Below, in pieces: positions 4,229-18,932 of a stretch of 20,841 nt of DNA; the stretch's first letter is position 1; the number at the start of each line of letters is the position of its first letter. The translations under genes were made by a program, and so were the position numbers. The stretch is taken from positions 1 through 20,841 of the IMG/VR virus record IMGVR_UViG_3300044692_000066, one strand, 5' to 3'. The notes under the pieces were generated by a model that made no database searches, was not told where the DNA came from, and was given only the letters and a program-made list of their open reading frames with translations. The stretch is from a virus.

Positions 4229-4235
4229 GGTTTAG
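4229..4235 (-). promoter_or_regulatory. CTAAACC start-site motif, portal
   Basis: On the minus strand the sequence reads AGCTAAACCGGGAG-GTG. The C of the motif is exactly 12 nt before the GTG at 4223. No ribosome-binding site with normal spacing precedes that GTG. The fit to a promoter core at -12 with a leaderless start is inferred. Confidence 0.5.
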
Positions 4236-4250
4236 CTGTCTGGACACCCG

Positions 4251-4257
4251 CTAAACC
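4251..4257 (+). promoter_or_regulatory. CTAAACC start-site motif, HTH gene
   Basis: The sequence reads CGCTAAACCGAGGC-ATG, with the motif 12 nt before the ATG at 4263. GAGG is only one base from the ATG, too close to act as a normal ribosome-binding site. It forms an outward-facing pair with the portal copy. Confidence 0.5.
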
Positions 4258-4262
4258 GAGGC

Positions 4263-4454
4263 ATGGGTCGACCCGCACCAAAGCAACCCGCGCCACTGCA
4301 CGAAGGCGTGGCGGCGGTATTTATGGCGAACGAAATTCGAAGGGCGCGCACACGCCAGCCGCAACCGTCCTATTCGCAGATCGCGCGCGAGCTGGGCTGC
4401 ACCGAAAAAACCGTATACCGCGTGCTGACGGGGAAGACGCATGCCGCCGAATGA
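4263..4454 (+). CDS. Small helix-turn-helix DNA-binding protein, 63 aa
   Basis: The 63-residue protein has a Pro/Arg-rich N-terminus and a C-terminal helix-turn-helix, YSQIARELGCTEKTVYRVL at about residues 37-55, of the homeodomain-like or resolvase type. It opens the plus-strand group that continues with a small-terminase-like protein, with which it overlaps by 14 bp. Two roles fit. It could be the DNA-recognition part of a split small terminase that binds the packaging site. It could also be a regulator acting on the inverted repeat just upstream of its own start. The sequence does not decide between them. The ATG at 4263 is 12 nt downstream of the CTAAACC motif. Confidence 0.65.
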   Translation: MGRPAPKQPAPLHEGVAAVFMANEIRRARTRQPQPSYSQIARELGCTEKTVYRVLTGKTHAAE

Positions 4455-4902
4455 CCGGCCCGTGGCGATGCGCGAGGTGATCGTGTGCCAACCCGGCGCG
4501 GAGGGCGCGGCGATCGAAGCGGAGCGCGCGGAGCGCGCGGAGCGCGCGACGACGCTCGCCGTGCGCCGCGCCGAGGAAGCCGCGCGCCTGGCCATCGCCG
4601 AGAACAAAATGACGCACGCGCAAATCCAGCGCGAGGCGATGCTCTTCGTCCTCGGTCAGGTGCAGAAATGGAACAAGATGGCGGAACACCCCGATTTCCA
4701 GAACGCCCTCGGCCCGCTGGACCCGAAGGTGGTCATCAAGCTCGCGGACTTCGCGACGAAGAATTTCCGCCTCGACACCGGCCAGTCCACGGAAAACATC
4801 GCCCACGCCGTCACGCGCACGGTCGACTTTTCGAAGCTGACGCAGGAGGAGCGTAACGCGTGGCGCGCGCTCGCTCTGAAGGCCGGCGCGGGGCAAGAAT
4901 AA
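4441..4902 (+). CDS. Putative small terminase-like protein
   Basis: This 153-residue protein starts with ATG at 4441 after GGGGAAG and overlaps the HTH gene. Its N-terminal half is a long charged helix containing the AER triplet repeat, encoded by three 9-bp copies at 4522-4548. The C-terminal half, with LDPKVVIKLADFATKNFRLD and FSKLTQEERNAWRAL, resembles the oligomerisation region of small terminase subunits, where a helix of the form KALELxAKLxGLD is common. Small terminases recognise phage DNA and activate the large subunit. It lacks its own HTH, which the upstream 63-residue protein could supply. No large terminase follows in this window. The assignment rests on weak pattern similarity and context; a structural or regulatory protein is possible. 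Confidence 0.4.
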   Translation: MPPNDRPVAMREVIVCQPGAEGAAIEAERAERAERATTLAVRRAEEAARLAIAENKMTHAQIQREAMLFVLGQVQKWNKMAEHPDFQNALGPLDPKVVIKLADFATKNFRLDTGQSTENIAHAVTRTVDFSKLTQEERNAWRALALKAGAGQE

Positions 4903-4929
4903 CGGATTTCGGAGACGTGCCCTCTAATT

Positions 4930-5436
4930 ATGGGTGACTCATTTTGGGGCGTTCTGTCGGTGCTCGCGATCGACCCGGGCGCGAAAACGGGCTGGGCGTT
5001 GTTCCAGTCGCGTGTCGAACGTCCGTGGCACCTCGCCGCGTGCGGCGTCGTCTGCCCCCAGGATCACCTTTGGTTGGGGGGTTTGGAAGATTTAGATCTG
5101 GTCGTCATCGAAAACCCTCAGATTTACCCTTCGTCGAAGGTGCCGCCGAACGACATTCTGACCCTCGCGCGCATCGTCGGGCGGTATGAAGAGCGCTTCG
5201 CGGGCCGCGCCGAACGCATCGAGCTGGTCAAGCCGCGCGAGTGGAAGGGCTCCGTCAACGGGGACATCATGGCGCGCCGGATCGAAAGCGCGCTGTCGGC
5301 CTACGACAAGGACGTGATGCGCGGGTGCCTCGTCGGCACCGCCGAAGGCTATCGCCACAACGCGATCGACGCCATCGGGCTCGCACAGTGGACGATCAAG
5401 CAGCGTCGGCTCTGCCCGCGCGCGGAGGGGCGATGA
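4930..5436 (+). CDS. RuvC-fold Holliday-junction-type nuclease
   Basis: The 168-residue protein has the layout of RuvC-like resolvases: AIDPGAKTGWA with D15 on the first strand, VVIENPQ with E61, KPREWKG in the middle, and HNAIDAIGLA with D147 near the C-terminus. These acidic residues would bind the two metal ions that cut branched DNA. Phage members resolve recombination or replication intermediates, sometimes just before packaging, which suits its place next to small-terminase-like and portal genes. The start is uncertain: the ATG at 4930 has CGGAGA too far upstream, and an in-frame GTG at 4960, directly before the first strand, would remove ten residues. The family match is firm; the exact substrate is inferred. 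Confidence 0.85.
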   Translation: MGDSFWGVLSVLAIDPGAKTGWALFQSRVERPWHLAACGVVCPQDHLWLGGLEDLDLVVIENPQIYPSSKVPPNDILTLARIVGRYEERFAGRAERIELVKPREWKGSVNGDIMARRIESALSAYDKDVMRGCLVGTAEGYRHNAIDAIGLAQWTIKQRRLCPRAEGR

Positions 5437-5466
5437 TGTCGGACATATCCGCCGCGTTCAGGCGGC

Positions 5467-6663
5467 TTAGGCCAGTGCCGGCCCGAGCCCCGCGGCGTGC
5501 GACCATCGGGCGTTCGGGTTGCTGAAGACGAGGAATTGCGACGGCGAGCCGTAGAGCCTCGCGTTGATCGCGCCGCCGGTGAACACGAGCGGCGCGGCCG
5601 CCATCCGCCACGTGAATCCCCCGTCCGGGCTGTAGAGGATACGCAGGCCGGCGGCCACCGATACGGTCACAGCCAGGCAGCTCGAGTTATTCACGCCCAG
5701 ACCGCGCGAGCCCGTGAACGACGAGATCGAACTGACCTGCGTCCAGTTCACGCCGTCTTGCGACTGGTACGTGTTCATCCGGCTACCCGTGCCGGTGACG
5801 AGCACGAACGCTCCGTCCGCCGGCGAGTAGACCAGCCCGTTCGGCTGCTCTCCCGAGGCGAGGAACGCCGTGGACTGCAACGTCCAGGTCGTGCCGTCGG
5901 GGGACGTCATGTAATTCGTGGGCGGGCCGCCTTGCGGCATCACGACGAGCAGCGCGGAGGACTGCGCCATGAAAATGTCGCCATACGCGCCCCCGATCTT
6001 CGTGACCGGTACGCTCCACGACGACGGCGTGCCGGGCGTCGTCTCGTACGCGACGAAGGCCCCGATCGAACCCGGGAAGGTCCCCGCGAACGCGCCGACC
6101 ACGCGCCCGGCGAATACGGTGAGAACGCCGATCGGTAACGTGGTCGACGACAATCCGGCACCGGCCGAATTGAATCCTAGCGTCCACGCGCCGCCGAACG
6201 TGCAATGGTATATATCGGCGACGCTTGTCGTGCAGAACGCGCCAAAATAGTTCGTGCCATCAAACGCCGCGCTCGTCGCGAAGCCGAGCGCTCCAGCGCC
6301 GTTGTCGACGCTGGACCACCCCCCGGCGTCGTTGACGCCGTACGCGAGGAAGACGTTGCTCGATACGGTCCCGGACGAGCCCGCGCAGACGAGCCACGTG
6401 TTACCGACCGGATCCCACGCCCCGCCGTAGAAATTGACGTAGCCGGCCGTCGCTGACGCAGTGAAGGTGGCACCCCACGACACCCCCGGGACCGCCCCGC
6501 CCACGCTCGATTGGACCGAGATCGCGTTCAGGATCTGGTTCATCTCCTGCGCGGTCGATGCCTGGTCAGGCGTGAAATACGCATAGTTCGGATCGACCTT
6601 GATCGGTGTGCCGTTGTACGTATTCGATCCGGCCGGGTAATTCGTTCCGTTCGCCCAAAGCAT
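5467..6663 (-). CDS. Tail fibre or receptor-binding protein with Asp-box repeats
   Basis: The 398-residue product is rich in Gly, Ser, Thr, Ala and aromatic residues and poor in charge, as expected for a beta-structured virion surface protein. Asp-box motifs of the BNR/sialidase type are visible: SPDGTTW at 254-260, SQDGVNW at 301-307 and SPDGGFTW at 345-352. These mark a probable beta-propeller covering about residues 70-385. The N-terminal 60 residues, including DPNYAYFTPDQASTAQEMNQ, probably attach the protein to the baseplate. No sialidase catalytic set is recognised, so binding to a surface sugar is more likely than cleavage. It is the last gene of the tail operon, right after the DUF2612 baseplate gene, the usual place for a receptor-binding protein. 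Confidence 0.75.
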   Translation of the reverse strand: MLWANGTNYPAGSNTYNGTPIKVDPNYAYFTPDQASTAQEMNQILNAISVQSSVGGAVPGVSWGATFTASATAGYVNFYGGAWDPVGNTWLVCAGSSGTVSSNVFLAYGVNDAGGWSSVDNGAGALGFATSAAFDGTNYFGAFCTTSVADIYHCTFGGAWTLGFNSAGAGLSSTTLPIGVLTVFAGRVVGAFAGTFPGSIGAFVAYETTPGTPSSWSVPVTKIGGAYGDIFMAQSSALLVVMPQGGPPTNYMTSPDGTTWTLQSTAFLASGEQPNGLVYSPADGAFVLVTGTGSRMNTYQSQDGVNWTQVSSISSFTGSRGLGVNNSSCLAVTVSVAAGLRILYSPDGGFTWRMAAAPLVFTGGAINARLYGSPSQFLVFSNPNARWSHAAGLGPALA

Positions 6664-6664
6664 G

Positions 6665-7294
6665 TCACGCCACCTTTTGCAGATTCGCCCACACGCGCAC
6701 CGTCGGAGTGGGGTTAGTGGAGTCGCCCCAGCCGGTGCCCTGGCCGGGGGTCGTCGAGTCGCCGAGCAGGAAAAGCGTTTTAGTGCTGACCTGCGTGCGG
6801 ATGTTCCCGGCGGTCCCCGCCTCCGCGGCCTCGCCGAGGTCCGTGATCAGGGCGTTCACGATGCTCGTCGACTGCGGCCCCGTCGGCGTCAGGTCGACCT
6901 CCCACGCGGCGGGATACCATTCGGAGTACGCGGCGCCGAGGACGACGAGCGCGACGATCTGGATGATGTCCTCGGCAAGGCCGTTCGAATTGTTGATCCG
7001 GATGCGTAGGCGCAGCGCTGGGACGTAGTCCGCATCGGTGCGGCCGTTACGCGGCTCGCCGACGATGGCGCCGATCTGGTCGAGGATCGCCCACGGCCCG
7101 CCCGCCATGGGGTGATTGTCCAAAATCACCGCGTTCAGGAACGACCAATAGTCGTTTTCGATCTGCTGGAGCCGCGTGGCCAGCGCGCGCACGAAGCCCT
7201 GGACGTTGGGCGTCTGGATCGGGTCGGCGTATCGCGACGTCAGCCACCCGAGGGCCGTCGTGACGTACGAGCTGTCAAGGAGGGGCGCGGGCAC
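6665..7294 (-). CDS. Baseplate wedge protein, DUF2612 family
   Basis: The 209-residue protein contains AILDQIGAIVGEPRNGRTDA at about residues 69-88, then YVPALRLRIRINNSNGLAED, the conserved core of DUF2612. These proteins follow baseplate J in contractile phages and correspond in position to P2 gpI or Mu gp48, linking the wedge to the fibres. The start is GTG at 7294, two bases after the stop of the J gene, and its own stop lies one base before the fibre start. The C-terminal region is Gly/Thr/Ser-rich with STTPGQGTGWGDSTNPTP and may contact the fibre. Confidence 0.85.
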   Translation of the reverse strand: MPAPLLDSSYVTTALGWLTSRYADPIQTPNVQGFVRALATRLQQIENDYWSFLNAVILDNHPMAGGPWAILDQIGAIVGEPRNGRTDADYVPALRLRIRINNSNGLAEDIIQIVALVVLGAAYSEWYPAAWEVDLTPTGPQSTSIVNALITDLGEAAEAGTAGNIRTQVSTKTLFLLGDSTTPGQGTGWGDSTNPTPTVRVWANLQKVA

Positions 7295-7296
7295 CG

Positions 7297-8520
7297 CTAG
7301 ACCCCGTTGACCAGGATATTGGCCGTGCTCAACGTGAATATCTTGAGGAAGCTACCCGCGATATTCGCGGTGTTCGTCGGGCTCGAGTGAATATCGAAGG
7401 TGAACGTGGGAACGTCCGTGATCGGCGGCGTGTACGCGGGCTGAAGGGCCGTCGCGTCGGCGGCGCTGACCGCCTCGAGAGGGCTCGCGCTGAACGTGCG
7501 GGCGATGATGGCGCTCCCCAGGCCTACGTTAACCGCGAACCACCCCGCGATGGCGCTCTTCACAGCGGCCGTCTGCGCCGTCGTAAGGCTCGAGGGCGTC
7601 GTGGTGCAGGTCACGAAGATCGGCACCTGCACGGCGCGGTCGAAGCCGACGACGCGCGAGACGCCTTGCGAGTCGGTGATCGTAACGAGCGTGCCGCCAT
7701 AGGCCTGGACGCCGCTCCCCTTTCGCGTCCAGATCGCGCTCGCGAGCGCGCTGTTTGCCGCGCTCAGACCCGCGCCGTCCCACACGACGATGCGGAAGGC
7801 CTTGCCGGGGAGGCCATTCGAATCGGGGAGGATCGTCGTGTTTTCGAAGCCGTACGCCGAGATGACGCCAGGCACTTCGAGCACGCCCGCGACGATGCTT
7901 GCCAGGTTGCCGCTACCCTGCCCCGCAAGCTCCGCCTCGCGCTTGTTGCGCAAAGTCGTATTCGTGTCGGCGGCGAGGCCGTTCACCGACGCTCCGGGGT
8001 TGGTGACCGAAAGCCAGCCTGTCGAAGGCGTGCCGATGACCGTGAGCGTCCCGGCGTTCGCGACGAAGACCCCCGGCGTCTGGCTGCGGAAGGTCGCAGA
8101 CAGCGTTGCCGTGCCGCCGCTCGAGTTCGTGACGTCCGCCGTCAGGACCCATACGTTCGAGGGCTGATTGATTACGCTCGCCGTCGCGCCGGCGTGGACC
8201 GTCGTCCCCGCGGTGAGCACGAGCGACGCCGTCACGGTGGAGTACGTCGCGGTCTGCGCGTGCGTCCCGGTGAGCGCGCAGAGGTTGCGGAGGAATTGAT
8301 CCTCGGCCGCGCCCGGATTGAGCATATTGAAAACGGTCGCGCCCAGCTCCGTCAACGTGGCCAAGCGCTCGGCGAACGCCGCGATCACCTGCCCGATCGG
8401 CTGCGTCGGGTCCAGGTTGAGGTCTCCCCGGACGTTGGCCAGGACGAGGGTATTCAGGTTTTCCACCTCCTCGTCGGTCGTTGTCGCGGCGTAGCCGGCA
8501 GAGGTAAATCCGGTCGTCAT
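7297..8520 (-). CDS. Baseplate J-like protein
   Basis: The 407-residue protein matches the baseplate J / Mu gp47 family in length, order and sequence. The N-terminus has DLNLDPTQPIGQVIAAFAER, typical of the family, and the middle has the repeat-rich beta region. The segment NKREAELAGQGSGN at about residues 191-204, followed by EVPGVISAYGFENTT, is also characteristic. J proteins form the outer baseplate wedge that switches the tail into contraction. ATG at 8520 overlaps the stop of the gp25-like gene as ATGA, which points to translational coupling. Confidence 0.92.
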   Translation of the reverse strand: MTTGFTSAGYAATTTDEEVENLNTLVLANVRGDLNLDPTQPIGQVIAAFAERLATLTELGATVFNMLNPGAAEDQFLRNLCALTGTHAQTATYSTVTASLVLTAGTTVHAGATASVINQPSNVWVLTADVTNSSGGTATLSATFRSQTPGVFVANAGTLTVIGTPSTGWLSVTNPGASVNGLAADTNTTLRNKREAELAGQGSGNLASIVAGVLEVPGVISAYGFENTTILPDSNGLPGKAFRIVVWDGAGLSAANSALASAIWTRKGSGVQAYGGTLVTITDSQGVSRVVGFDRAVQVPIFVTCTTTPSSLTTAQTAAVKSAIAGWFAVNVGLGSAIIARTFSASPLEAVSAADATALQPAYTPPITDVPTFTFDIHSSPTNTANIAGSFLKIFTLSTANILVNGV

Positions 8521-8930
8521 TGCGCACCTCCTGCGCCGGCCGGCGCCGCGGCGGCCACGTCGATGATGAACGGCTGGCCGACGCCGCCAGTGATGATTGC
8601 CCCGCTATTCGTACGCACCTTGCAAGTCACTTGCAGTTGCCTCGTGCTGCGGAAAAACGTCACATCCAATTGGTCCACGCTCGCCACGCCTTGCGGGGTC
8701 TTCAGGGTTTTTGCGAAGATCGACGAAATCAGATCCAGGTTCGGGTTGGCGACGAGTACGAATTGCACGTAAGGCAGCCCCTGGCGCGTGTCGCGAAACC
8801 ACTCACCCTTGAAAAAAGAGAAAAGGTTCGACAGTTCCCACGCCGTGTTTTGCGCGAGGTCGGTCGAGACCTGGAGATTCCCCGACGACAGGTCCCAATC
8901 GCCGGTATTGGTCTGCGCAAATTGCGACAC
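8517..8930 (-). CDS. Baseplate wedge protein, gp25/gpW-like
   Basis: The 137-residue protein begins with DWDLSSGNLQVSTDLAQNTA and contains FFKGEWFRDTRQGLPYVQ, a pattern of the gp25-like wedge family in which the chain moves from a lysozyme-like fold into the EWFxDxxxGxPY signature. It joins the sheath to the wedge at the baseplate and precedes J as usual. Start is GTG at 8930; CTAAACC lies 16 nt upstream, and no clear ribosome-binding site is seen. The last ten residues are an Ala/Gly/Pro tail. Confidence 0.85.
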   Translation of the reverse strand: MSQFAQTNTGDWDLSSGNLQVSTDLAQNTAWELSNLFSFFKGEWFRDTRQGLPYVQFVLVANPNLDLISSIFAKTLKTPQGVASVDQLDVTFFRSTRQLQVTCKVRTNSGAIITGGVGQPFIIDVAAAAPAGAGGAQ

Positions 8931-8939
8931 GCCGACAGG

Positions 8940-8946
8940 GGTTTAG
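8940..8946 (-). promoter_or_regulatory. CTAAACC start-site motif, gp25-like gene
   Basis: On the minus strand GCACTAAACCCCTGTCGGC precedes the GTG at 8930. The motif falls in the 23-bp gap between the spike and gp25-like genes, one of the few gaps in an otherwise overlapping operon. A start 12 nt downstream would leave a leader of about four bases. The promoter role is inferred. Confidence 0.45.
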
Positions 8947-8953
8947 TGCCCGG

Positions 8954-9631
8954 TCAAGGGGCGCATTTAACGGTCGTCGATCCGGTCGTCGTGAACGTGG
9001 AGAGGAATCCACTAAGGGCCGTCTTCAACGCTGCGCCGCCGTCCCCGGGGTTGGGTGTCCACGCCACGAAAGCGGCGATAAACAAATCGAGCTTCGATGC
9101 CAGCGCCACGGCATCGCTGGCGGGCGCGCCGAGTTCGATGTCCGACGAGCCGATCCGGATCTGCGCCGTCCCACCGTCCTTGCCGATGATGATCTTCGAC
9201 GGGTCGGCCGCGGGCGAAGTCAGCGCCTTCGCATCGGGCGCGACCATCGGGATCGCAAACGGCGAATCGTGCGTGTGCACACCCGCCCATACTGGATCCA
9301 CGGGCGCACTCGCGTCGCCCGATCGCCATGAATCGCACGAGAGGTCGGAGAAAACAAGCAAGACCGTGTCGCCGGCGGCGACGGGTACCCAAACGAAGAA
9401 ACCCCCGCCGCGCAGCACGCCCAGCGGGACGTCCGTGTACGACGGCGCCGGCATCGAGACCGCGTTGCCCAAATCGTCGAATAGGAGTTGATTTACCCCC
9501 ACCTGCACGTCAACGGTCTGCTTGTCCGGGTGCACGGCGGTGACCGTGGCCGGGACGCATTTGCGGATATCCGACTTGACCTTTTCGGCGTGCCGGGCGA
9601 ACACTTCCTCGAGCGATCGATCGATGGGCAT
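8954..9631 (-). CDS. Baseplate spike protein, Gp138 N-terminal domain family
   Basis: The 225-residue protein has the Gp138 N-terminal OB-fold pattern: ATVTAVHPDKQTVDVQVG at about residues 28-45, then a run to GGGFFVWVPVAAGDTVLLVF near 76-95. The segment after it, with HTHDSPFAIPMVAPD, and the Gly-rich C-terminus fit the extended triplex or needle region. Proteins of this family form the trimeric membrane-piercing spike at the centre of the baseplate, like P2 gpV. It follows the hub gene by one base, which fits a direct hub-spike contact. No lysozyme domain is visible. Confidence 0.85.
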   Translation of the reverse strand: MPIDRSLEEVFARHAEKVKSDIRKCVPATVTAVHPDKQTVDVQVGVNQLLFDDLGNAVSMPAPSYTDVPLGVLRGGGFFVWVPVAAGDTVLLVFSDLSCDSWRSGDASAPVDPVWAGVHTHDSPFAIPMVAPDAKALTSPAADPSKIIIGKDGGTAQIRIGSSDIELGAPASDAVALASKLDLFIAAFVAWTPNPGDGGAALKTALSGFLSTFTTTGSTTVKCAP

Positions 9632-9632
9632 A

Positions 9633-10565
9633 TTAGTATTTCACGCAATCCATTTCCGCCCACCACGCTTGATCGTACGTCGATCCCTGGTAGCGTATTT
9701 TCTCAATCCGGTAGCCGCCCTTCTGGACGAAAAGCGAGTCGATCGACACCAGCGCGCCGGGCTGCAACCCCGGTATTAGCAGCGTCTTCACCTGCACGAC
9801 GCCCTGGCTGTCGACCGACGGCGAGTCGATCATCCCCGTGTCCGCAGAAATCTCGATCGCCTTGGTGCTCGATAGCGCCTGACCGATATTCAGGATTTGT
9901 AGCACCCCGTCTTGGATCGACCACTCGAGGCCCGCCGATCGGCAGAGGTCCGTCATCCGATCGCCGGCGTTGCCGATCAGCGCCGCGGTCCGAACCGAAA
10001 TCTGCGCCGCACCGGCCATCGCTTGGGTAAGGTTACCCCGGTCCACGCCGAGCTGTTCGACGATCGCGTCGAAGGCCTGTTTGACCGGCACGTAGGCGCC
10101 GAACGTCTTGGTGACGTTCCCAATCGATCCCGGCTGCGCCTTTTTCGAATTTTTGATGCCGGTCGGGCGCGCGATCGTGTCGGCCGACTCGATGCGCGTG
10201 ACGTAATTAGCGTCCTTGCGCGTCGTCCACGCCGCGTGAGCCTCGGCAAAGAAGATTTGCCCTACCTGGTCCTTATAGCCGGCGTCGAGCTTGACAGTCA
10301 GCTTCCCCGCTCCGGACAGCGACTGCCTCGAATCGGGATTGAGATTGAAGATTTCGATCAAGCACGTGTTCGGCTCGGTCGCCTTCAGCGACTTCTCGAC
10401 GGTGAAATCGACGTCGAAGCCCGACAGGTCGCGGCCGAGGGCGTTGCTGGTGTTGAACGGAACTTTGATGTTCTGCGTGGGGCTCGCCGGGAAGCCGATC
10501 ACAAGATTCATCCGCCGATCAAAAAGCGGAATGCCCTGGACGTCGCCCTTGCCCGCGGTCGCCAC
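9633..10565 (-). CDS. Baseplate hub protein, gp27/XkdQ-like
   Basis: The 310-residue protein lies between the plug gene and the spike gene, where contractile phages keep the hub. Its N-terminal half contains GFDVDFTVEKSL and IEIFNLNPDSRQSL, a pattern common to tail hub proteins, and the C-terminal half has GLEWSIQDGVLQILN and LLIPGLQPGALVSID, typical of the late-control or gp27 fold. The hub caps the tail tube and carries the spike. The open frame extends to 10694 inside the plug gene, but a GTG at 10565, directly after the plug stop, or ATG at 10511 are better starts. I chose 10565; the choice changes only the first 18 residues. Confidence 0.8.
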   Translation of the reverse strand: MATAGKGDVQGIPLFDRRMNLVIGFPASPTQNIKVPFNTSNALGRDLSGFDVDFTVEKSLKATEPNTCLIEIFNLNPDSRQSLSGAGKLTVKLDAGYKDQVGQIFFAEAHAAWTTRKDANYVTRIESADTIARPTGIKNSKKAQPGSIGNVTKTFGAYVPVKQAFDAIVEQLGVDRGNLTQAMAGAAQISVRTAALIGNAGDRMTDLCRSAGLEWSIQDGVLQILNIGQALSSTKAIEISADTGMIDSPSVDSQGVVQVKTLLIPGLQPGALVSIDSLFVQKGGYRIEKIRYQGSTYDQAWWAEMDCVKY

Positions 10566-10566
10566 G

Positions 10567-10974
10567 TCACGCCCCCGGAGTAAAAATGCCGCTGATGAAC
10601 GGACCGGGGTTGCGCTCGGGCTCGGCGTTCGCGGCGTAGAGGTCCGTCGCGTCGACGTAAACGAGTAGCACGCGTTTGCCCGTACCGAGCTCACCGAGGG
10701 CGGGCGCGGCGTCGCTCGTCGTGTCGACGCGCATCGCGACGATCTCCCCCGGCGGCCCGCCCCCCGCGCCGTACGTGCGCAACAAGGGGAAGTCCGGCAC
10801 GACCTTCACACCGAGCGCGTAATCGATCGAGCCGTCTTCGGAGGAGATATCGAAATAGTAGACGGCCTCGCGGGTGTTGTATTTGAAGGTCAGCAGGTAC
10901 GGCGTGCCGTCGAGGGTTGCGACCTGCGTCCAATACGTCGCCGATGGGTCGATGCTGATCTGCGTCCAGGCCAT
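10567..10974 (-). CDS. Baseplate plug protein, Pam3 gp18-like
   Basis: The 135-residue protein has the sequence LDGTPYLLTFKYNTREAVYY near residues 21-40, then GVKVVPDFPLL, which matches the pattern of the cyanophage Pam3 plug domain family (a bulky beta fold with the core LxxxxYxLTxxYNxRxxxWYxDI). In Pam3 this protein fills the centre of the simplified baseplate. ATG at 10974 overlaps the stop of the Dit-like gene as TAATG. The Pro/Gly-rich C-terminus, PERNPGPFISGIFTPG, is probably flexible. Confidence 0.75.
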   Translation of the reverse strand: MAWTQISIDPSATYWTQVATLDGTPYLLTFKYNTREAVYYFDISSEDGSIDYALGVKVVPDFPLLRTYGAGGGPPGEIVAMRVDTTSDAAPALGELGTGKRVLLVYVDATDLYAANAEPERNPGPFISGIFTPGA

Positions 10975-11828: not shown

Positions 11829-13501
11829 TACTGCGCCCCCGTCGCGCTGGGCATCCCCGCTCCGACGGCGCGGAACGCCTTGCGGGTGCCGGCCGTCGCA
11901 GCGTTGGTGATCTCTTTCGGCGCCGCCTGACCCGTCGTGTGGACCGTGACGTTATTCGTGACGCTCAACGAGCCGTTCCACATCGCCGGCACGTTCGGCG
12001 CGCCGGGTTGATTCGGCTGGGGCTGCGCGGCGAGGAAGTACGGCACGTCGGTATTGCCCGGCGCCCCCGGCGCGCCGGCGCCCGGCGCGGGCGGCGGGGC
12101 CTTGTTGACCGGTGTGGTGAGGCTATCGAAGGCGCGCGCCATGCGCTGGTAGTTCTGCTGGCGCTGGTCGTATGCGGCTTGCTTGTCGGCAAACTCCTTG
12201 TCGACCAGGTTCTGAGCCGCGTCGAATACGGCGGCGCTACCCTTGAACGGGTGCGCGAAGCGGTCGAACATAATCGTCACGCTGGCGATCGCGTGCTGGA
12301 GTCGGTCGACCTCGTTGATCGCCTCGTCCACGCGGGAGACGACCAGCGTCAGAAATTCCCCGCCCCACGCCGCGATCTGCGGGATGCCGTCGACGAAGAC
12401 ACCCACGAACGACTTGTGAAAGTCCTTCATGCCGTCCGTCGCCGCGAATACCGCGTCTTTTATCGCGTTGAAAGCGCCGGTAATCTCCGCTGCGACCCCT
12501 TTCGAGTCACCGCCGAGCTTGTCGATCTGCCGGCCGATGACCGAGTCTCCGCCGGCGAGGAACGTGTAGAAGTCATCGAATACAATATACGCCGCGAAGA
12601 TCGCCGCCCCGATCGCCGTGAACAAGGCAATGAGCGGCAGCCACGACGCGTACGCGAGCGCGCCATACGTCGCCGCCGCGGCGCCGAGGAAGATCAGAGC
12701 GGTCCGAAGCGCGTAGGAGTGCTTCGCCGTGTCGATGAGGATCTTGACGTTCGCGATCCCGTGCTTCACCCACTCGACCAGTGCGGGGAGCAGCTCCCGA
12801 ACGATGGCCGTGCGCATGGTCCGCCAACCGAGCGCGAGGCGCTTCTGCTGCCGATCGACATCGTGAGCCTTCTGGATGAAATCCTCGTCGAGACCTCCAC
12901 CCATCTCGCGGACATCGTCGAACATCTCTTTGAGCGCGGCGCTGCCCTGCTGGAGGACGGGCAGCATCGACGCGCCGCCGCGGCCGAGCGCGCGCATGGC
13001 GAACGCCGTGCGCGTGGCCTGATCGGGGATCGCGTGGAGCTTGTCCGAAAACTCGAGCAGGAGCTGATCCGTCGGCTTGATCTGGCCGTTGCCGTCCCGG
13101 ATCTGTATGCCCATCTGCCGGAAATACTTGGTAGTGCTCTTCGTCCCGAGTGCGACCTCACCGATGGCGCGATTGAAAAACCTGAAGGCCACGATCGCCT
13201 GCTGCGTCGGGACCTGCATCGTCTGAGCGACGTACTGATATTTTTGCAGTTCGTCGGTCGTCAGGCCGAGGTTTTCGGCGTTGTGCTTCAATTCGTCGGC
13301 CATCTGGATCTGGCCGAGGACGAATTGCCGAATGCCGTTGACGATCTGCCCGCCGACCCAAAGACGAGACATCGCGCGCAGCTCGCCGATGAAGCCGCGC
13401 GCGTTGTTCTTCGCAGACGTGAGCTTGCGGTCGGCGTCGGCCAGCTTGTCGCCGCCGGTGACGTCAATAACGAATTTGGCGACTACGTCGCGGAGCGCCA
13501 C
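11828..13501 (-). CDS. Tape measure protein
   Basis: This 557-residue protein is the longest of the tail operon and sits between the chaperone fusion and the Dit-like gene, the standard tape-measure position. It has a helical N-terminus including KLTSAKNNARGFIGELRAM, a long hydrophobic stretch at about residues 264-308 with several potential membrane helices, and a Pro/Ala/Gly-rich C-terminus. Tape measures set tail length and may enter the host membrane during infection. At about 1.5 angstroms per residue it would specify a tail near 80 nm. The start is GTG at 13501, with GGAGG five to nine bases upstream; the preceding chaperone fusion ends 3 bp before. Confidence 0.9.
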   Translation of the reverse strand: MALRDVVAKFVIDVTGGDKLADADRKLTSAKNNARGFIGELRAMSRLWVGGQIVNGIRQFVLGQIQMADELKHNAENLGLTTDELQKYQYVAQTMQVPTQQAIVAFRFFNRAIGEVALGTKSTTKYFRQMGIQIRDGNGQIKPTDQLLLEFSDKLHAIPDQATRTAFAMRALGRGGASMLPVLQQGSAALKEMFDDVREMGGGLDEDFIQKAHDVDRQQKRLALGWRTMRTAIVRELLPALVEWVKHGIANVKILIDTAKHSYALRTALIFLGAAAATYGALAYASWLPLIALFTAIGAAIFAAYIVFDDFYTFLAGGDSVIGRQIDKLGGDSKGVAAEITGAFNAIKDAVFAATDGMKDFHKSFVGVFVDGIPQIAAWGGEFLTLVVSRVDEAINEVDRLQHAIASVTIMFDRFAHPFKGSAAVFDAAQNLVDKEFADKQAAYDQRQQNYQRMARAFDSLTTPVNKAPPPAPGAGAPGAPGNTDVPYFLAAQPQPNQPGAPNVPAMWNGSLSVTNNVTVHTTGQAAPKEITNAATAGTRKAFRAVGAGMPSATGAQ

Positions 13502-13504
13502 GGG

Positions 13505-14073
13505 TCACCTCCGCGCGTACGCTTCCCGCCGAGCGTTTTCGCGCTCATTGAAATAGCGGGTCGCGACGAGCCATTCATCAAAAGACCATTCGTACTGAAT
13601 CTCAGCAAATGTCCCGTACCCCGCCTCTGCCAAGGCCAGGAACGGGCGCGCTACGTCGAGGTCGTCGTCTTCCCCGCCGTCGCCGCCAGGTCCGGGAGCT
13701 GCGGGTTGATTCCGAGCCCAGCGAAAAAATTTGCGAAGTTCGCGTCGATGCAGGCCCAAAGCCACTTGAGCATCTCGCCGTACCGGCCGGCAAAGTGCTC
13801 ATCGAAGGTCGCTTCGTCGAGCTGGAAAACACGCTTGTCGTCGGTGACCGCGTGGAATTGCGTTGCGGCACCGAAAACGCGGCAGAAATAGTCCAGGTCA
13901 TCGTCCGAAATCGAGGCGGCGATCTTGGCGAAGGCCTCGCCCTCGTTGTCCGCATCGGCGATCGGACCCATGAGCTTCATAAGCCGCGCCAGGACCGCGC
14001 GGCCCTGCTTCGCCCCGAGCTGCTGAATCCGGTAATTGTACGCGTCAATTACCTTCGACTTGACGTCACGCAT
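13505..14073 (-). CDS. Tail assembly chaperone fusion made by -1 frameshift
   Basis: The product starts at ATG 14073 like the short chaperone but slips back one base at AAATTTTTTC (13732-13723). It then reads the overlapping frame to the TGA at 13505-13507, giving about 189 residues: 116 from the first frame and 73 from the second. The added part holds RWARNQPAAPG, an acidic linker GEDDD, and the conserved-looking end YEWSFDEWLVATRYFNERE. Lambda G/GT-type chaperones of this design bind the tape measure and recruit tube subunits. The second frame has no convincing start of its own; a first ATG at 13765 lies inside the first gene without a ribosome-binding site. Genomic position, frame offset and slippery sequence all agree. 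Confidence 0.82.
13651..14073 (-). CDS. Tail assembly chaperone, short form
   Basis: The 140-residue protein has a charged helical pattern, with FDEHFAGRYGEMLKWLWACI at about residues 90-109 and then FFAGLGINPQLPDLA, a segment common to tail chaperones of contractile phages. It follows the tube gene and precedes the tape measure, the usual place. Start is ATG at 14073 with GGAGG upstream and CTAAACC further upstream at 14098-14092. The slippery run falls at residues 114-117, so most of the protein is shared with the fusion. The short product is expected to be the more abundant one. Confidence 0.82.
   Translation of the reverse strand: MRDVKSKVIDAYNYRIQQLGAKQGRAVLARLMKLMGPIADADNEGEAFAKIAASISDDDLDYFCRVFGAATQFHAVTDDKRVFQLDEATFDEHFAGRYGEMLKWLWACIDANFANFFAGLGINPQLPDLAATAGKTTTST
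13723..13732 (-). other. Programmed -1 frameshift slippery site
   Basis: On the minus strand the codons read GCA AAT TTT TTC in the first frame and AAA TTT TTT CGC in the second. A-AAT-TTT and T-TTT-TTC both fit the XXXYYYZ slippery pattern. The second frame is -1 relative to the first and stays open to 13505. GC-rich sequence just downstream could form a stimulatory structure, but I could not fold it. Confidence 0.82.
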
Positions 14074-14091
14074 CCGCCAACCTCCGTCGGC

Positions 14092-14098
14092 GGTTTAG
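14092..14098 (-). promoter_or_regulatory. CTAAACC start-site motif, chaperone gene
   Basis: The minus strand reads TCACTAAACCGCCGACGGAG, with GGAGG downstream of the motif and ATG at 14073. The motif fills the gap between tube and chaperone genes. A start 12 nt after the C would leave a short leader that still contains the ribosome-binding site. The promoter role is inferred. Confidence 0.45.
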
Positions 14099-14101
14099 TG
14101 A

Positions 14102-14533
14102 TCAGCTCCCCGCGTCCACGCGCGTGAGGTCCGCGCACTCGAGGGTCCACTCGCGCGTGGTGATCTTGCTGTCGAGCGAGACGTCCGGCGGCTTGGCGAT
14201 CCAGCACGCGCTTGCGGTCCACGTGGCCAGGCCCGAGACACGGTCGCGGATGAGCATGGGGCCGATGTCCGCGCCGTTGCGCGCGAGCAGGCCGGCGTTG
14301 CTCAACGTCGTAAACAGCGTATTACCGCTCGAGGTATGCATGAGCTTGACCTTGATCGTCGCGTGCCGGTTGTTCGTGCGCGACCGGCCGACCTCGCCGT
14401 CGGTGCCCACCACTACCTCGTAGTCGGGCGCGGACTGCTCAATCGTGAGAAATTCGCCCTCGGCAAAACCCGAGTCGATGAGCAGGCCCATGAACACCAT
14501 GGTTACCTGCTTTGCGTCATATCGCTTGGCCAT
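14102..14533 (-). CDS. Tail tube protein, DUF3277 family
   Basis: The 143-residue protein starts MAKRYDAKQVTMVFMG and contains VVVGTDGEVGRSRTNNRHAT near residues 40-59, then LMHTSSGNTLFTTLSN and the C-terminal IAKPPDVSLDSKITTREWTL. These are the marks of DUF3277, the inner-tube protein of this contractile phage group. It follows the sheath by 27 bp, as tubes usually do. The ATG at 14533 is preceded by GGCGGAG with good spacing. The tube polymerises around the tape measure inside the sheath. Confidence 0.88.
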   Translation of the reverse strand: MAKRYDAKQVTMVFMGLLIDSGFAEGEFLTIEQSAPDYEVVVGTDGEVGRSRTNNRHATIKVKLMHTSSGNTLFTTLSNAGLLARNGADIGPMLIRDRVSGLATWTASACWIAKPPDVSLDSKITTREWTLECADLTRVDAGS

Positions 14534-14560
14534 TGCTGAATCTCCGCCGGATTACCGGGA

Positions 14561-15880
14561 TTAGTTCGTGATTACCCCTTGGATGGTCACGGAGTCGATC
14601 GCGCCCGCGAGCTGCGCCGTGAACGACACGAGGGGCAGATTTCGCGACTGACGCGACGTCGGCGACAGGTTCGCGACGAGGGGCACCGAGACGAATGGCG
14701 CCGGCGACGCAGCGAGGAAACCCGTATTCACGAACTGCGTCAGGGCCGCCGTCAGGACGGACCGGATCATGTCGACGCCGGCGTCCGTGTAGGGGATCTT
14801 CAAATTGTTCGCGAGCAGCGCCAGAATGCCGACCTGAATCGCGTTCGTCAGCGCGTCGATGCCGCGCGTGATGTCGATCCACTGGCCGTCCGGCCGCTTG
14901 CCGAATTGCGTCAGGTTCAGCCCGAAGATCGTGCTGTAAACCGAGCCGTTGAAGCCCTCAACCGCGTGGATCTGCGTGGTCGTGAGCGGGTCGGCGATGA
15001 CGCCGGAGAGAGTCTTGAAAGCCCAATTTTCCGATCCCGGAATCGTCGGAAAAAGGCGCCCCTGCCACGCAGCTCCCGAGTACGAAAGCAGTCGACTCGC
15101 GCTCATGAGGCCTGCCGATCGCGTGTGCGACAGCAGCTTTTCCGTGTACATGATGTTCGTCGTGTCCGACGGGTTCATGCAGAGGGAATCGGTCGTATTC
15201 CAGATAAACAGCTTGCCGTTCGCCTCGGCCCATGCCGCGGCCGCGGTGATCTCCGCCGGCGACTGCGAATCGAGGACGAGCCCGTACCAATTCGCGTCGA
15301 GGGCCAGGATCGCGTTCAGGTCCGTCGCGATGCCCGGGTCCGTGGTCGTGTCCGCGAACGAGCAATGAACGAGGTCCGGGTAGAAGTCGACGAGCGCGCC
15401 CGCGGTCAGCGAGATCGTGAAAAACGCATTTGAAGACGTGTGCGTCGCCGTCACGCCGGTGAGCGCGAGCGCGGTCACCGCCGCGGCCGCGGTCCCGGCG
15501 TCGGTACCGGGAACGCCCGTCGAGGCGAACGAGATCGTCGCCGGCGTGGTGCCCGGAAGGCCGACCTTAAACGAGTAGGTGTCGAGCGTGGACGTCGAAT
15601 TGAGCGTGACCTTCAACGTCTGCGCGGGCTTCAGGTTGCGCGGGCCGACCTTCACCGCCGGAGGCGCGGGATTCTGCGAAAAGATCATCGTCGCGGCGAG
15701 CACCGCGGGATGATTCGCGCCGGCGCCATCGGTGATCATGCCGCTGACGGAGCTGTATTCCCGCACCCCTCCGGAAAACCAAAGGTTGCTGGCGGCAATC
15801 AACGTCTCGCCAAATCCCGCTTGCTGCGGACCCGCCCCCTGGACGGAAATCGCAAGACTGACGACGTCGGTAATGGGCAT
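14561..15880 (-). CDS. Contractile tail sheath protein, DUF3383 family
   Basis: The 439-residue protein opens with ITDVVSLAISVQGAGPQQAG and continues FGETLIAASNLWFSGGVREY, then a pattern of YSSVSGMITDGAGANHPAVL and FSQNPAPPAVKVG, the DUF3383 N-terminal block. The middle is a variable beta-rich domain, and the C-terminal block contains FGKRPDGQWIDITRGIDALT followed by LANNLKIPYTDAGV, typical of sheaths. The sheath contracts to drive the tube into the host. ATG at 15880 is the first gene of the minus-strand tail operon; TCGGAGC precedes it and CTAAACC lies 27 nt upstream. Its presence establishes myovirus morphology. Confidence 0.92.
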   Translation of the reverse strand: MPITDVVSLAISVQGAGPQQAGFGETLIAASNLWFSGGVREYSSVSGMITDGAGANHPAVLAATMIFSQNPAPPAVKVGPRNLKPAQTLKVTLNSTSTLDTYSFKVGLPGTTPATISFASTGVPGTDAGTAAAAVTALALTGVTATHTSSNAFFTISLTAGALVDFYPDLVHCSFADTTTDPGIATDLNAILALDANWYGLVLDSQSPAEITAAAAWAEANGKLFIWNTTDSLCMNPSDTTNIMYTEKLLSHTRSAGLMSASRLLSYSGAAWQGRLFPTIPGSENWAFKTLSGVIADPLTTTQIHAVEGFNGSVYSTIFGLNLTQFGKRPDGQWIDITRGIDALTNAIQVGILALLANNLKIPYTDAGVDMIRSVLTAALTQFVNTGFLAASPAPFVSVPLVANLSPTSRQSRNLPLVSFTAQLAGAIDSVTIQGVITN

Positions 15881-15900
15881 AGTGCGCTAGCTCCGACAGC

Positions 15901-15907
15901 GGTTTAG
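15901..15907 (-). promoter_or_regulatory. CTAAACC start-site motif, sheath and tail operon
   Basis: The minus strand reads TCACTAAACCGCTGTCGGAG ahead of the sheath ATG at 15880. It faces away from the plus-strand copy at 15935, forming an outward pair in the 66-bp gap between tail and head operons. TCGGAG, a likely ribosome-binding site, lies at or just after the point 12 nt downstream. No -35-like partner was recognised. Confidence 0.5.
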
Positions 15908-15934
15908 TGACGGTCGAGGGCGTAGGCCGTCTCG

Positions 15935-15941
15935 CTAAACC
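15935..15941 (+). promoter_or_regulatory. CTAAACC start-site motif, head operon
   Basis: The sequence reads TCGCTAAACCCGGGC-GTG, with the motif exactly 12 nt before the GTG at 15947. No ribosome-binding site of normal spacing is seen. It is the head-side half of the divergent pair in this gap. A leaderless start is inferred. Confidence 0.5.
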
Positions 15942-15946
15942 CGGGC

Positions 15947-17164
15947 GTGAGCGTTCGCTTCGACGAATTACGCCTCGACGCCGGATCGGTGCAGGAACTG
16001 CCCGACGGCTCCCTAAAGGTGGTGGGTCGCCTGACCCGCACGGGCATTTTCAATTACCGAAATCCGGACGGATCGCGACGAACCGAATACCGTCCCGCCG
16101 ACGAGGTCTTTTCGCCGCGCGCGATGGCCACGTTCGCAGCAGCGCCGGTGACGATCAATCACCCGCCGGTCGACGCCAACGGCCGTCAGATCCTCGTCAA
16201 TAAGGACAATTGGCGTCGCCTGTCCGTGGGCCATCTCGGAGAGTCCCTCCGTCAGGATGGGGATCACCTCGCGGCGGACGTCTACATCCGAGACGCCGAG
16301 GCCGTGGCAAAGGTCAAATCAGGGAAACTCCGCAAAATATCGCTGGGCTATCAGGTCGATTACGACCGAACGCCCGGCGTGACCCCGGATGGGGCTCGCT
16401 TCGATGGCGTCCAGCGAAATATCCGAGGCAATCACGTCGCGCTCCTCCTCGGCCACGCGCCGCGCGGGGGCGATACTTGCGAATTGCGCCTCGACTCCGA
16501 GGACAACGAAGTTTGCGAGACGGCCGAAGGCCGGATCGACTCCGCACTAAACCCGGGCATGACGCTCGAGGAAGCCCTTGCAAAGATTCTCGCCCTTCAG
16601 GGCGAATTGACCCAAGCCCGCACGGACGCCGCAGAGGTTCCGACGCTTCGTGCGAAGGTGACCGAGCTCACGAACGCGCTGACCGTCGCTCAGGGCGAGC
16701 TGACGCCCGCGCGGCTCGATTCGCTCGCGACCGACCGCGCCAATACCGTCGCCCTCGCCAAGGCGAGCGGCGTCGACGCCGCGGTGCTCGCGAAGCCTAC
16801 GCTCGAAATCAAGCGAGCGCTCGTCGCGAAGCGCACGCCAACGTTGGCCACGCGCACGGACTCGATGAGCGCGGATGCCCTGGACGCGGTCATCGCCGTG
16901 TACGCGGACGCGCCTCACCCGTCGATGGCGGCCGCGGTCGCGCCGCTCGCTGCGCCCATCACGGCCCCCGCCGCGGCGCCGGGGGCGCGCACGGACTCGG
17001 CCGGCCCGGCGAAGCCGAAGACGGTGGCGGAGCTTCAAGCCGCTTTCGCCGCTCGGATTCACGACCAGTGGCGCACCGACTCGGGGGATCCGATCCCTGC
17101 GCCGAATCCCGTCAACCCCGACCGCGCTCTCGCGGCCGAAAACGCCCTCGCCGGAGTCCGATAA
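15947..17164 (+). CDS. Prohead protease, DUF2213 family, with scaffold domain
   Basis: The first 185 residues match DUF2213: FNYRNPDGSRRTEYRPADEV, then APVTINHPP with H72, ISLGYQVDYD with S132, and QRNIRGNHVALL with H163. His and Ser are plausible members of the catalytic set. Such proteases cut the scaffold and other head proteins during maturation. Residues about 205-405 are Ala/Leu/Lys/Glu-rich with a coiled-coil stretch near 205-245 and a low-complexity Pro/Ala part near 320-350, as in a fused scaffold. GTG at 15947 sits 12 nt after a CTAAACC motif. The architecture is like that of lambda C with Nu3, where the scaffold is the C-terminal part of the protease reading frame. The stop at 17164 abuts the cement gene. 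Confidence 0.9.
   Translation: MSVRFDELRLDAGSVQELPDGSLKVVGRLTRTGIFNYRNPDGSRRTEYRPADEVFSPRAMATFAAAPVTINHPPVDANGRQILVNKDNWRRLSVGHLGESLRQDGDHLAADVYIRDAEAVAKVKSGKLRKISLGYQVDYDRTPGVTPDGARFDGVQRNIRGNHVALLLGHAPRGGDTCELRLDSEDNEVCETAEGRIDSALNPGMTLEEALAKILALQGELTQARTDAAEVPTLRAKVTELTNALTVAQGELTPARLDSLATDRANTVALAKASGVDAAVLAKPTLEIKRALVAKRTPTLATRTDSMSADALDAVIAVYADAPHPSMAAAVAPLAAPITAPAAAPGARTDSAGPAKPKTVAELQAAFAARIHDQWRTDSGDPIPAPNPVNPDRALAAENALAGVR
16547..16553 (+). promoter_or_regulatory. CTAAACC start-site motif inside the protease gene
   Basis: The sequence reads GCACTAAACCCGGGC-ATG, the same layout as at 15935, with the ATG at 16559 exactly 12 nt after the C. The codons CTA AAC CCG are part of the protease frame, encoding L201-N-P. 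The recurrence of the full 15-base layout before an internal in-frame Met suggests a nested gene start. Confidence 0.5.
16559..17164 (+). CDS. Nested capsid scaffold protein (internal start in protease gene)
   Basis: Starting at the internal ATG, residue 205 of the protease, this in-frame product would be 201 residues. It begins MTLEEALAKILALQGELTQA, a coiled-coil pattern with hydrophobic heptads, and ends in a basic and Pro/Ala-rich region. The scaffold guides assembly of the major capsid protein and is later cut by the protease. Independent expression is known for lambda Nu3 within C. Here it is supported by the CTAAACC motif with identical 12-nt spacing. No Shine-Dalgarno sequence is well placed before this ATG, so translation could be leaderless. 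Without expression data the nested product is a proposal. Confidence 0.6.
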   Translation: MTLEEALAKILALQGELTQARTDAAEVPTLRAKVTELTNALTVAQGELTPARLDSLATDRANTVALAKASGVDAAVLAKPTLEIKRALVAKRTPTLATRTDSMSADALDAVIAVYADAPHPSMAAAVAPLAAPITAPAAAPGARTDSAGPAKPKTVAELQAAFAARIHDQWRTDSGDPIPAPNPVNPDRALAAENALAGVR

Positions 17165-17710
17165 ATGAGCGTCGTTCAGGGTCAGCAGACCTATTTCATG
17201 TTTCCGCCGCTGGCTGACCCCGGTCAGCTCGCCGACTGCGCATACAACGAAATCGTCACGTACATCGCCGCGGAGACGATCAACCCCGGTCGCGCGGTGG
17301 AACTGGCGGCGGACGGCCTGTCAATTCAGCAGGCGCAGCAGACCGGCAGCACGTTCAATCCCGTCGGCGTCGCGGTTCTCCAGACCGCGCGCGAGGGCCA
17401 GGGCGCCGTCGGAATCACGGGGTACGGCGTCGAGGGTCCGGCCTACCAAATCGGCGAGCCGGTTCCGGTCCTGATTCGCGGCCGGATTTACGGTGAGTGG
17501 TCGGGCACCACGCAGACCGCGATCTCGAATCCCAACGTCTTCCACTCGTCCACCACGGCGACCAATCGCGGCAAGTTCACCGACACCGCGACGTCCACGA
17601 CCGCCGGCAGCGAGGTCGCGGCCGCCGGTCACCCCTTCCGCGTCTTCGCGAAGCTCCCCGGGACGGGATCGATCGTCCTGCTCGACGTCAACCTGCCGGG
17701 CGCGGCGTAA
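17165..17710 (+). CDS. Capsid cement/decoration protein, gp24-like
   Basis: The 181-residue protein contains YNEIVTYIAAETINPGRAVE at about residues 28-47, then FNPVGVAVLQTAREG and GYGVEGPAYQIGEPVPVLIR near 82-101, the pattern of the structural cement protein family found between protease and major capsid genes. It binds between capsomers and stabilises the mature head. The central Ser/Thr/Ala-rich stretch is probably an exposed loop. ATG at 17165 directly follows the protease stop TAA without a gap, which suggests coupling. The assignment rests on family pattern and gene order. Confidence 0.78.
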   Translation: MSVVQGQQTYFMFPPLADPGQLADCAYNEIVTYIAAETINPGRAVELAADGLSIQQAQQTGSTFNPVGVAVLQTAREGQGAVGITGYGVEGPAYQIGEPVPVLIRGRIYGEWSGTTQTAISNPNVFHSSTTATNRGKFTDTATSTTAGSEVAAAGHPFRVFAKLPGTGSIVLLDVNLPGAA

Positions 17711-17743
17711 GCGGCCGGGAACAATTGAAGGAGAATTGACCCT

Positions 17744-18856
17744 ATGCTTTCGGCCGACCGTCCCGCAATGAGCGGGGTCCGCTACGACCTGGCGGACTAC
17801 ATCAATCCCGAAGCCGTCGCGGCCGCCTCCGGCGGCTCTGTCCGCGTCGACGCCGCGGGAAGCGCGTTCTTTCTCCGCGACCTGACCGAGGTCATGGGGC
17901 GGACGTTCGATATCAAATACCCCGACCTGAAGGCGCGCAGCCTTTTCCCGGTGTTCACGGGCGTTGACCCCGGCGCCGAGGGATACGTCTGGCGATCGTT
18001 CGACCGGCGCGGCGGCGCGAAGGTAATCACCGACTACGCCGCGGATATGCCGTCCGCGGAAACGGTCGGCGTCGAGTACCAGGCGCGGTGCCTCTCGCTC
18101 GGCACCTCTTACCAGTATTCGATTCAGGACCTCAACAAGTCCCGAATGGCGGGCATTCCGCTCGAGACGCGCAAGGCGCTCGCCGCGCGGCGCGCGATGG
18201 AAGAGGCTTTCGAAACGATCGCCTTCTTCGGCGTGGCGCAGTTCGTCGGCGGCAGCGCTGGCAACATCAACCTCGGCACGAACGGCTCGCCGTACTTCGC
18301 GCCCGCGACGCCGAACGGGAGCGACCCGTTGGCGATGTATGGGATCACGAATTTCCCGGCTATCTCGGCGTTGTCGCTCGTGACGACGACCACGAACAAC
18401 TGGTCGTCGGGGGCGAGCGTCACGGACATCGTCAACGACTTCAACGCGCTGTTCCTCCAGGTGTTGCAGCAGAGCAACGGCGTGCACCAGGCGGACACGG
18501 TCGTCATGCCGCTGTCGACGTGGACCCTGCTCATGCAAATGCAGCGGTCGACGACGTTCACCGATGATACGGTTCTCCAGTACATCAAAAAGATCAACCC
18601 CTGGCTGAAGAACATTTATTGGACGCCGATGCTCGAGTTCGCTGGACTCAAGCAAAATGGCTCCACGCCGGGGCCGTTGATCATCTGCTACGAGCGCAAT
18701 TCGGAGAACGTCGAGCTGGTCGTGCCCCAGGAGTTCGAGCAGCTTCCCCCGCAGCTCGTGAATTACACGTACAAGGTGCCCTGCCACATGCGCGTCGGGG
18801 GCATCCGCGTGTCGTACCCCAAGGCGTTCCGCTTCCTTCAGGGCTTCGCCGGCTGA
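17744..18856 (+). CDS. Major capsid protein, DUF2184 family
   Basis: The 370-residue protein has the DUF2184 capsid pattern: FFLRDLTEVMGRTFDIKYPD near residues 43-62, then LKARSLFPV and GAEGYVWRSFDRRGGAKVIT near 83-102, and SIQDLNKSRMAGIPLETRKA near 126-145. The C-terminal part contains LELVVPQEFEQL-like and CHMRVGGIRVSYPKAFRF segments. It has the HK97-type shell fold by family knowledge. AAGGAGA at 17728-17734 precedes ATG at 17744, one of the strongest ribosome-binding sites in the window, fitting very high expression. A strong terminator follows at 18882. It completes the order protease, scaffold, cement, capsid. Confidence 0.93.
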   Translation: MLSADRPAMSGVRYDLADYINPEAVAAASGGSVRVDAAGSAFFLRDLTEVMGRTFDIKYPDLKARSLFPVFTGVDPGAEGYVWRSFDRRGGAKVITDYAADMPSAETVGVEYQARCLSLGTSYQYSIQDLNKSRMAGIPLETRKALAARRAMEEAFETIAFFGVAQFVGGSAGNINLGTNGSPYFAPATPNGSDPLAMYGITNFPAISALSLVTTTTNNWSSGASVTDIVNDFNALFLQVLQQSNGVHQADTVVMPLSTWTLLMQMQRSTTFTDDTVLQYIKKINPWLKNIYWTPMLEFAGLKQNGSTPGPLIICYERNSENVELVVPQEFEQLPPQLVNYTYKVPCHMRVGGIRVSYPKAFRFLQGFAG

Positions 18857-18881
18857 TCGTCTTCGCGCCGCGCATGCGGCT

Positions 18882-18920
18882 AGCCCCATCGCCTTCCTCC
18901 GGGCGATGGGGCTTTTTCTT
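18882..18920 (+). terminator. Strong intrinsic terminator after the capsid gene
   Basis: AGCCCCATCGCC at 18882-18893 pairs perfectly with GGCGATGGGGCT at 18902-18913 through an 8-base loop, and TTTTTCTT follows. It is the clearest Rho-independent terminator in the window. It closes the protease-to-capsid unit, so the neck genes downstream need their own promoter or read-through. Confidence 0.92.
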
Positions 18921-18925
18921 GTCCG

Positions 18926-18932
18926 CTAAACC
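18926..18932 (+). promoter_or_regulatory. CTAAACC start-site motif after the capsid terminator
   Basis: The sequence reads CCGCTAAACCCGGAGCGT, six bases after the terminator T-run. No start codon lies 12 nt downstream; a transcript beginning there would have a leader of about 70 nt containing GGGGAGGG before the DUF4054 start. A promoter for the neck operon is the natural reading and is inferred. Confidence 0.5.

Follow-up and report, generated by a model that had tools for sequence, protein, structure and literature searches.

T4 late promoters carry the sequence TATAAATA, and we know of no leaderless layout in T4. Late transcription in this phage depends on gp33 and the gp45 clamp. Its late promoters consist of a -10 element only and are read by gp55, a small sigma-70 relative without the domain that reads the -35 (PMC2988020). 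In phages phiEco32 and 7-11, a motif of the phage sigma factor (TAATGTATA, TGATGT core) heads the virion genes and early genes are left to host promoters (PMC4331800). Leaderless genes of Actinobacteria and Deinococcus-Thermus carry a -10 TANNNT about 11-12 bp before the start (PMC3160421, PMC12340547); for leaderless bacterial genes the distance to the start codon has also been given as about 12 bp (PMC3160421). Middle/late promoters of Thermus phage P23-45 are independent of -35 contact (PMC7403470).

The element described here, CTAAACC in one phage fragment and CTAAAAT or CTAAACT in its relatives, was compared with each of these. It resembles T4 in its apparent -10-only late promoters and its small candidate sigma without a -35 reader, whereas sequence and virion proteins differ; it was not classed as T4 late because the promoter sequence differs and equivalents of gp33 and gp45 lay outside the comparison. 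A short phage-sigma motif heading virion genes would be common to this system and phiEco32/7-11, but the sequence is another one, and a fixed 5-nt start spacing is not reported in the sections of that source used here. Leaderless TANNNT genes likewise place a -10 hexamer some 11-12 bp ahead of the start codon, but they use a host sigma and a weakly conserved middle, whereas in the present element CTAAA is invariant and the fragment lacks the last T. Phage promoters without need of -35 contact are shared with P23-45, where they are of the extended -10 class and are served by host sigma and the inhibitor gp39. By analogy, the element system would work like T4 gp55 and phiEco32/7-11 late transcription; no publication describing the element was found in the literature searched.

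CTAAACC copies in the window

The window, meaning the whole stretch of DNA that was analysed, is an IMG/VR virus record of 20,841 bases (65% GC) whose annotated genes (portal, baseplate, sheath, tail chaperone, head protease, major capsid protein) indicate a contractile-tailed phage. CTAAACC was found 9 times against 0.80 expected, and 0 of 100 dinucleotide shuffles reached 9. A first-pass annotation of this DNA had reported nine copies on both strands and about one by chance; all nine were recovered, position by position. Eight copies are preceded by a purine (RCTAAACC), as it had noted; the purine was ruled out as part of the element, since relatives show any base there. These eight had been described as lying upstream of genes: all head genes or starts, but the copy at 16546 does so within an open gene (15947-17164). 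Divergent pairs at both outward-facing strand switches (4229-/4250+ and 15901-/15934+) and a copy (18925) past the only strong terminator were likewise as described. Sites and genes were as follows.

4229..4236 (-): GCTAAACC element of the portal gene; GTG start 4223, gap 5 nt
1980..4223 (-): portal protein gene (Phage_portal_3, 2e-70)
4250..4257 (+): GCTAAACC element of the HTH / TerS-like / RuvC-like operon; ATG 4263, gap 5 nt
4263..4454 (+): gene for a 63-aa HTH protein, first in the rightward operon (HTH_7, 3e-5)
8940..8947 (-): ACTAAACC element of the baseplate wedge gene; GTG 8930, gap 9 nt
8517..8930 (-): baseplate wedge gene (PHROG 120, 3e-11)
14092..14099 (-): ACTAAACC element of the tail assembly chaperone gene; ATG 14073, gap 18 nt, GGAGG
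13651..14073 (-): tail assembly chaperone gene (PHROG 1613, 7e-12)
15901..15908 (-): ACTAAACC element of the tail sheath gene; ATG 15880, gap 20 nt, GGAG
14561..15880 (-): tail sheath gene (PHROG 205, 8e-83)
15934..15941 (+): GCTAAACC element of the head protease (DUF2213) gene; GTG 15947, gap 5 nt
15947..17164 (+): head maturation protease gene (DUF2213, 2e-38; PHROG 530), internal in-frame start 16559
16546..16553 (+): ACTAAACC element within the protease gene; in-frame ATG 16559, gap 5 nt
17744..18856 (+): major capsid protein gene (Major_capside, 2e-37), without an element of its own
18882..18913 (+): strong intrinsic terminator, 13 pairs, 3' of the major capsid gene
18925..18932 (+): GCTAAACC element past the terminator; TTG 19008, gap 75 nt, GGAGG
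19008..19340 (+): head-completion-like gene, which we take to be DUF1320-like

The ninth copy (1109) lies inside a gene (704-1486), as annotated. That gene also encodes tandem Lys/Ala-rich repeats of the KKAAASKTPEQ type (window 1200-1420), which resemble histone H1-like or nucleoid proteins. Two further repetitive stretches were seen in the window: a long Pro/Gly/Ala/Asp-rich low-complexity stretch in the portal gene (about 3230-3800), outside the portal family match, and a collagen-like GPPGPPGP repeat (20436-20490) close to the beginning of a probable tail-fibre gene that continues beyond the fragment end.

Motif-to-start gaps at the eight sites were 5, 5, 5, 5, 9, 18, 20 and 75 nt, the start codon following at exactly 5 nt in four of the eight. 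Gap-5 sites offer too little space for a correctly spaced ribosome-binding site, and the three longest gaps (18, 20 and 75 nt) contain one of GGAG type. The first-pass annotation had missed this leaderless spacing as well as the start inside the protease gene, where ATG 16559 is presumed to begin the scaffold part; the major capsid gene sits behind the protease/scaffold elements. With about half of the sites near start codons, a signal for translation or an element of the mRNA 5' leader was considered, but it is given hardly any weight: the other sites stand 18-75 nt off with a normal ribosome-binding site between, and the variants in relatives resemble a -10.

All eight sites are spelled CTAAACC, with C instead of T as the last -10 base of the hexamer TAAACC, and CTAAAAT and CTAAACT are absent from the window. 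One weak match to classical sigma-70 promoters was found in the window, and none beside a copy. This bears on a reading of the element as an operator, standing beside cryptic host promoters, for a phage activator or repressor such as the 63-aa HTH protein. That protein is encoded behind one copy and has a homologue in a long relative (G017, 29625-29861), and the divergent pairs look like operator regions. Such an operator is nevertheless very unlikely, given that the element is non-palindromic with fixed orientation, that the favoured 5-nt gap has no space for a separate downstream promoter, that no sigma-70 promoter accompanies the copies, and that G005 has the element and no detected homologue of the HTH protein.

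Spelling, placement and spacing in related phages

Relatives were gathered by capsid search (63-65% identity); terminase and tail tube scans brought in G007 (57.7 kb) and G017 (47.4 kb), along with several fragments. None was obtained by tail sheath alone. No close cultured relative was found, phage records matching at <60% identity, and host assignment with capsid and terminase profiles against GTDB genomes returned none.

CTAAACC itself was scarce in the relatives, its few copies lying, as far as seen, away from gene heads. When 7-mers were ranked by enrichment with no prior, CTAAAAT (L009, L010) and CTAAACT (L011) were at or near the top, at orthologous positions: the protease start, the internal scaffold start, the sheath, the chaperone and the 19008-type gene (orthologues in L009, L011 and G005). 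Among relatives of 55-57% identity, some retained CTAAAAT/CTAAACT despite rearrangement or inversion of gene blocks (L035, the same as G005), and two (L034, L036) carried GCGCTAGANT at matching places. The motif search across related phages suggested in the first-pass annotation found an element heading orthologous genes, but in altered spelling (CTAAAAT, CTAAACT, GCGCTAGANT). Within single phages other than that of the window the spelling was also fairly uniform: gene heads carried CTAAAAT in G001 and G007 and CTAAACT in G017 and L076, with mixed spelling in G005, G018 and L075. The internal in-frame start with its element was present in the window, G001, G002, G003, G007, G017, L076 and L087, and G004 and G006 have CTAGACT at the same position.

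Other short sequences were enriched further out. Four more distant phages (L092, L093, L095, L096; tube about 50% identical) are strongly enriched for GTTTAAA/TTTAAAC, with as many as 22 copies where 0.9 would be expected, perhaps a separate element peculiar to these phages, and in the distant relative L038 a palindromic AAACGTTT occurs in 12 copies (0.35 expected).

Start-codon spacing was scored at the CTAAA[AC][CT] sites of the relatives, with the window left out. ATG or GTG followed at a gap of exactly 5 nt in 28/79 sites, compared with 0-11% for 19 anagram controls; because the set holds overlapping or near-identical contigs (L054/L055, G001/L078, G005/G018) the effective n is below 79, and the contrast with the anagrams is still large. 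At this gap (4/8 window and 28/79 relative sites) the first T of the hexamer stands 11 bp before the start, which is close to the position of TANNNT in leaderless genes (about 12 bp). The final T is present in most relatives and absent in the window (TAAACC, 8/8).

In four long contigs, the virion module contained 34 sites in 113 kb, as against 3 sites in the 68 kb of the replication/terminase module; the p value of 1e-4 is indicative only, because module borders were drawn by eye from the gene map after the sites had been seen. Anagrams were also somewhat biased to the virion module, none as strongly in number, and the three early-module sites all lay within predicted ORFs. Early promoters were sought in the replication module of G007, with only weak matches near chance level.

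The first-pass annotation had recognised no -35 partner, and no TTGACA-like hexamer was enriched at 61 gene-head sites. Bases upstream of the motif likewise showed no strongly conserved position, which bears on a promoter core for a single-subunit phage RNA polymerase. T3-type promoters have a CACTAAA core, superficially matched at four window sites, but such enzymes need about 17 conserved upstream bases, none of which is conserved here, and the long relatives possess a sigma factor; this reading is highly improbable.

CTAAAAT, CTAAACT and CTAGAAT each contain, after the C, an ordinary -10 hexamer (TAAAAT, TAAACT, TAGAAT), a resemblance missed in the first-pass annotation, which had recognised no promoter class. 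Its proposal of a phage activator site is made less likely by the fixed 5-nt start spacing and by these -10-like hexamers. The element might instead be nothing other than the -10 (TANNNT) that the host uses at leaderless genes of its own, recognised by a primary or alternative host sigma, with the phage sigma acting elsewhere or in tuning. Where GC-rich bacteria have leaderless genes, TANNNT stands about 12 bp ahead of the start codon, as it does in Deinococcus-Thermus, and CTAAAAT and CTAGAAT provide good -10 hexamers. We consider a host -10 unlikely, however, since the window's TAAACC lacks the final T at 8/8 sites, CTAAA is invariant among sites and so tighter than TANNNT, virion-module genes are preferred while early genes are without the element, and spelling varies coherently from phage to phage.

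A candidate sigma factor and its proposed promoters

A sigma-70-family protein of 212-230 aa is encoded near the terminase in all four long clade contigs (G003, G005, G007, G017) and in the fragment G010. Sigma70_r2 was matched in G003 and G005, the other three being homologues, and PHROG 351 (RNA polymerase sigma factor) was matched by 5/5 members. In G021-G024, four long and distant relatives that lack the motif, no sigma protein was matched, and the incomplete window fragment has neither a sigma gene nor a large terminase gene. In G005, a pentapeptide-repeat protein (L041 12327-13016) is encoded directly behind the sigma gene.

The helix-turn-helix of sigma region 4.2 is the reader of the -35. 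A profile built from the five members was aligned with bacterial sigma factors (SigA/RpoD); the match begins at about region 1.2/2, ends at sigma-70 residue 563 and so stops before the region 4.2 helix-turn-helix, and this lack fits the missing -35 at the sites. An AlphaFold model of the phage sigma reached confidence in some parts only (mean pLDDT 77, pTM 0.47), and a search with it listed bacterial sigma factors among the first matches, sigma-S and sigma-A included, at domain level only (TM-scores about 0.4). The nearest annotated phage proteins were cyanophage and Bacillus phage sigma factors. Co-occurrence with the element and the missing region 4.2 are what link the phage sigma to it, as its putative reader.

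CTAAACC is very probably an on-switch for virion genes. We think it likely that it is the -10 of late promoters read by host core polymerase with a phage sigma lacking region 4.2. The first-pass annotation had offered, as one option, that host polymerase together with a phage factor reads a promoter core here; conserved placement, orientation, the lack of a -35 and the -10 likeness support this well, as does the sigma of regions 2-3 encoded by the long relatives. Under this proposal CTAAACC would act as the -10 element of phage late (virion) promoters and would be recognised by host core RNA polymerase carrying a sigma of regions 2-3; no -35 would be required, because region 4.2 is lacking. 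Transcription would start ~6-7 nt past the hexamer. With a gap of 5 nt between motif and start codon the mRNA would be leaderless or nearly leaderless; with a gap of at least 18 nt it would have a normal leader containing a ribosome-binding site. The element inside the protease gene would yield a separate scaffold transcript. The window phage's own sigma gene would lie on the missing part of the genome, and the promoters would presumably fire late. Sites at gaps of 9-75 nt are a misfit to a strict leaderless layout, and TAAACC lacks the -7 T favoured by sigma-70-type factors. A late promoter and phage sigma with many leaderless transcripts is the most economical account.

Possible co-change of promoter and factor

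Of the sigmas, those of G003 and G017, phages that both use CTAAACT, resemble each other most (46.5%). This suggests that promoter spelling and sigma change in step from phage to phage, though with so few sigmas common descent fits equally well. The C for T at the last -10 base at 8/8 window sites suggests concerted evolution of promoter and factor. Our tentative picture, which we hold with less than even confidence, is of an uncultivated contractile-tailed clade with a compact sigma and a seven-base, start-abutting promoter, a largely leaderless late programme, and spelling that changes together with the sigma, to T->C in the window. All promoters of the window having made this change, its sigma would possess a new -7 specificity.

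If true, a phage late programme would depend partly on the translation of leaderless mRNAs, and its scaffold protein would come from an internal promoter. CTAAAAT, CTAAACT, CTAAACC and CTAGANT would form a natural series of promoter alleles with matching small sigmas, in which sigma region 2 specificity at -7/-8, evolving with a whole regulon, could be tested directly. The element would also let the late genes of uncultivated phages be read from sequence.
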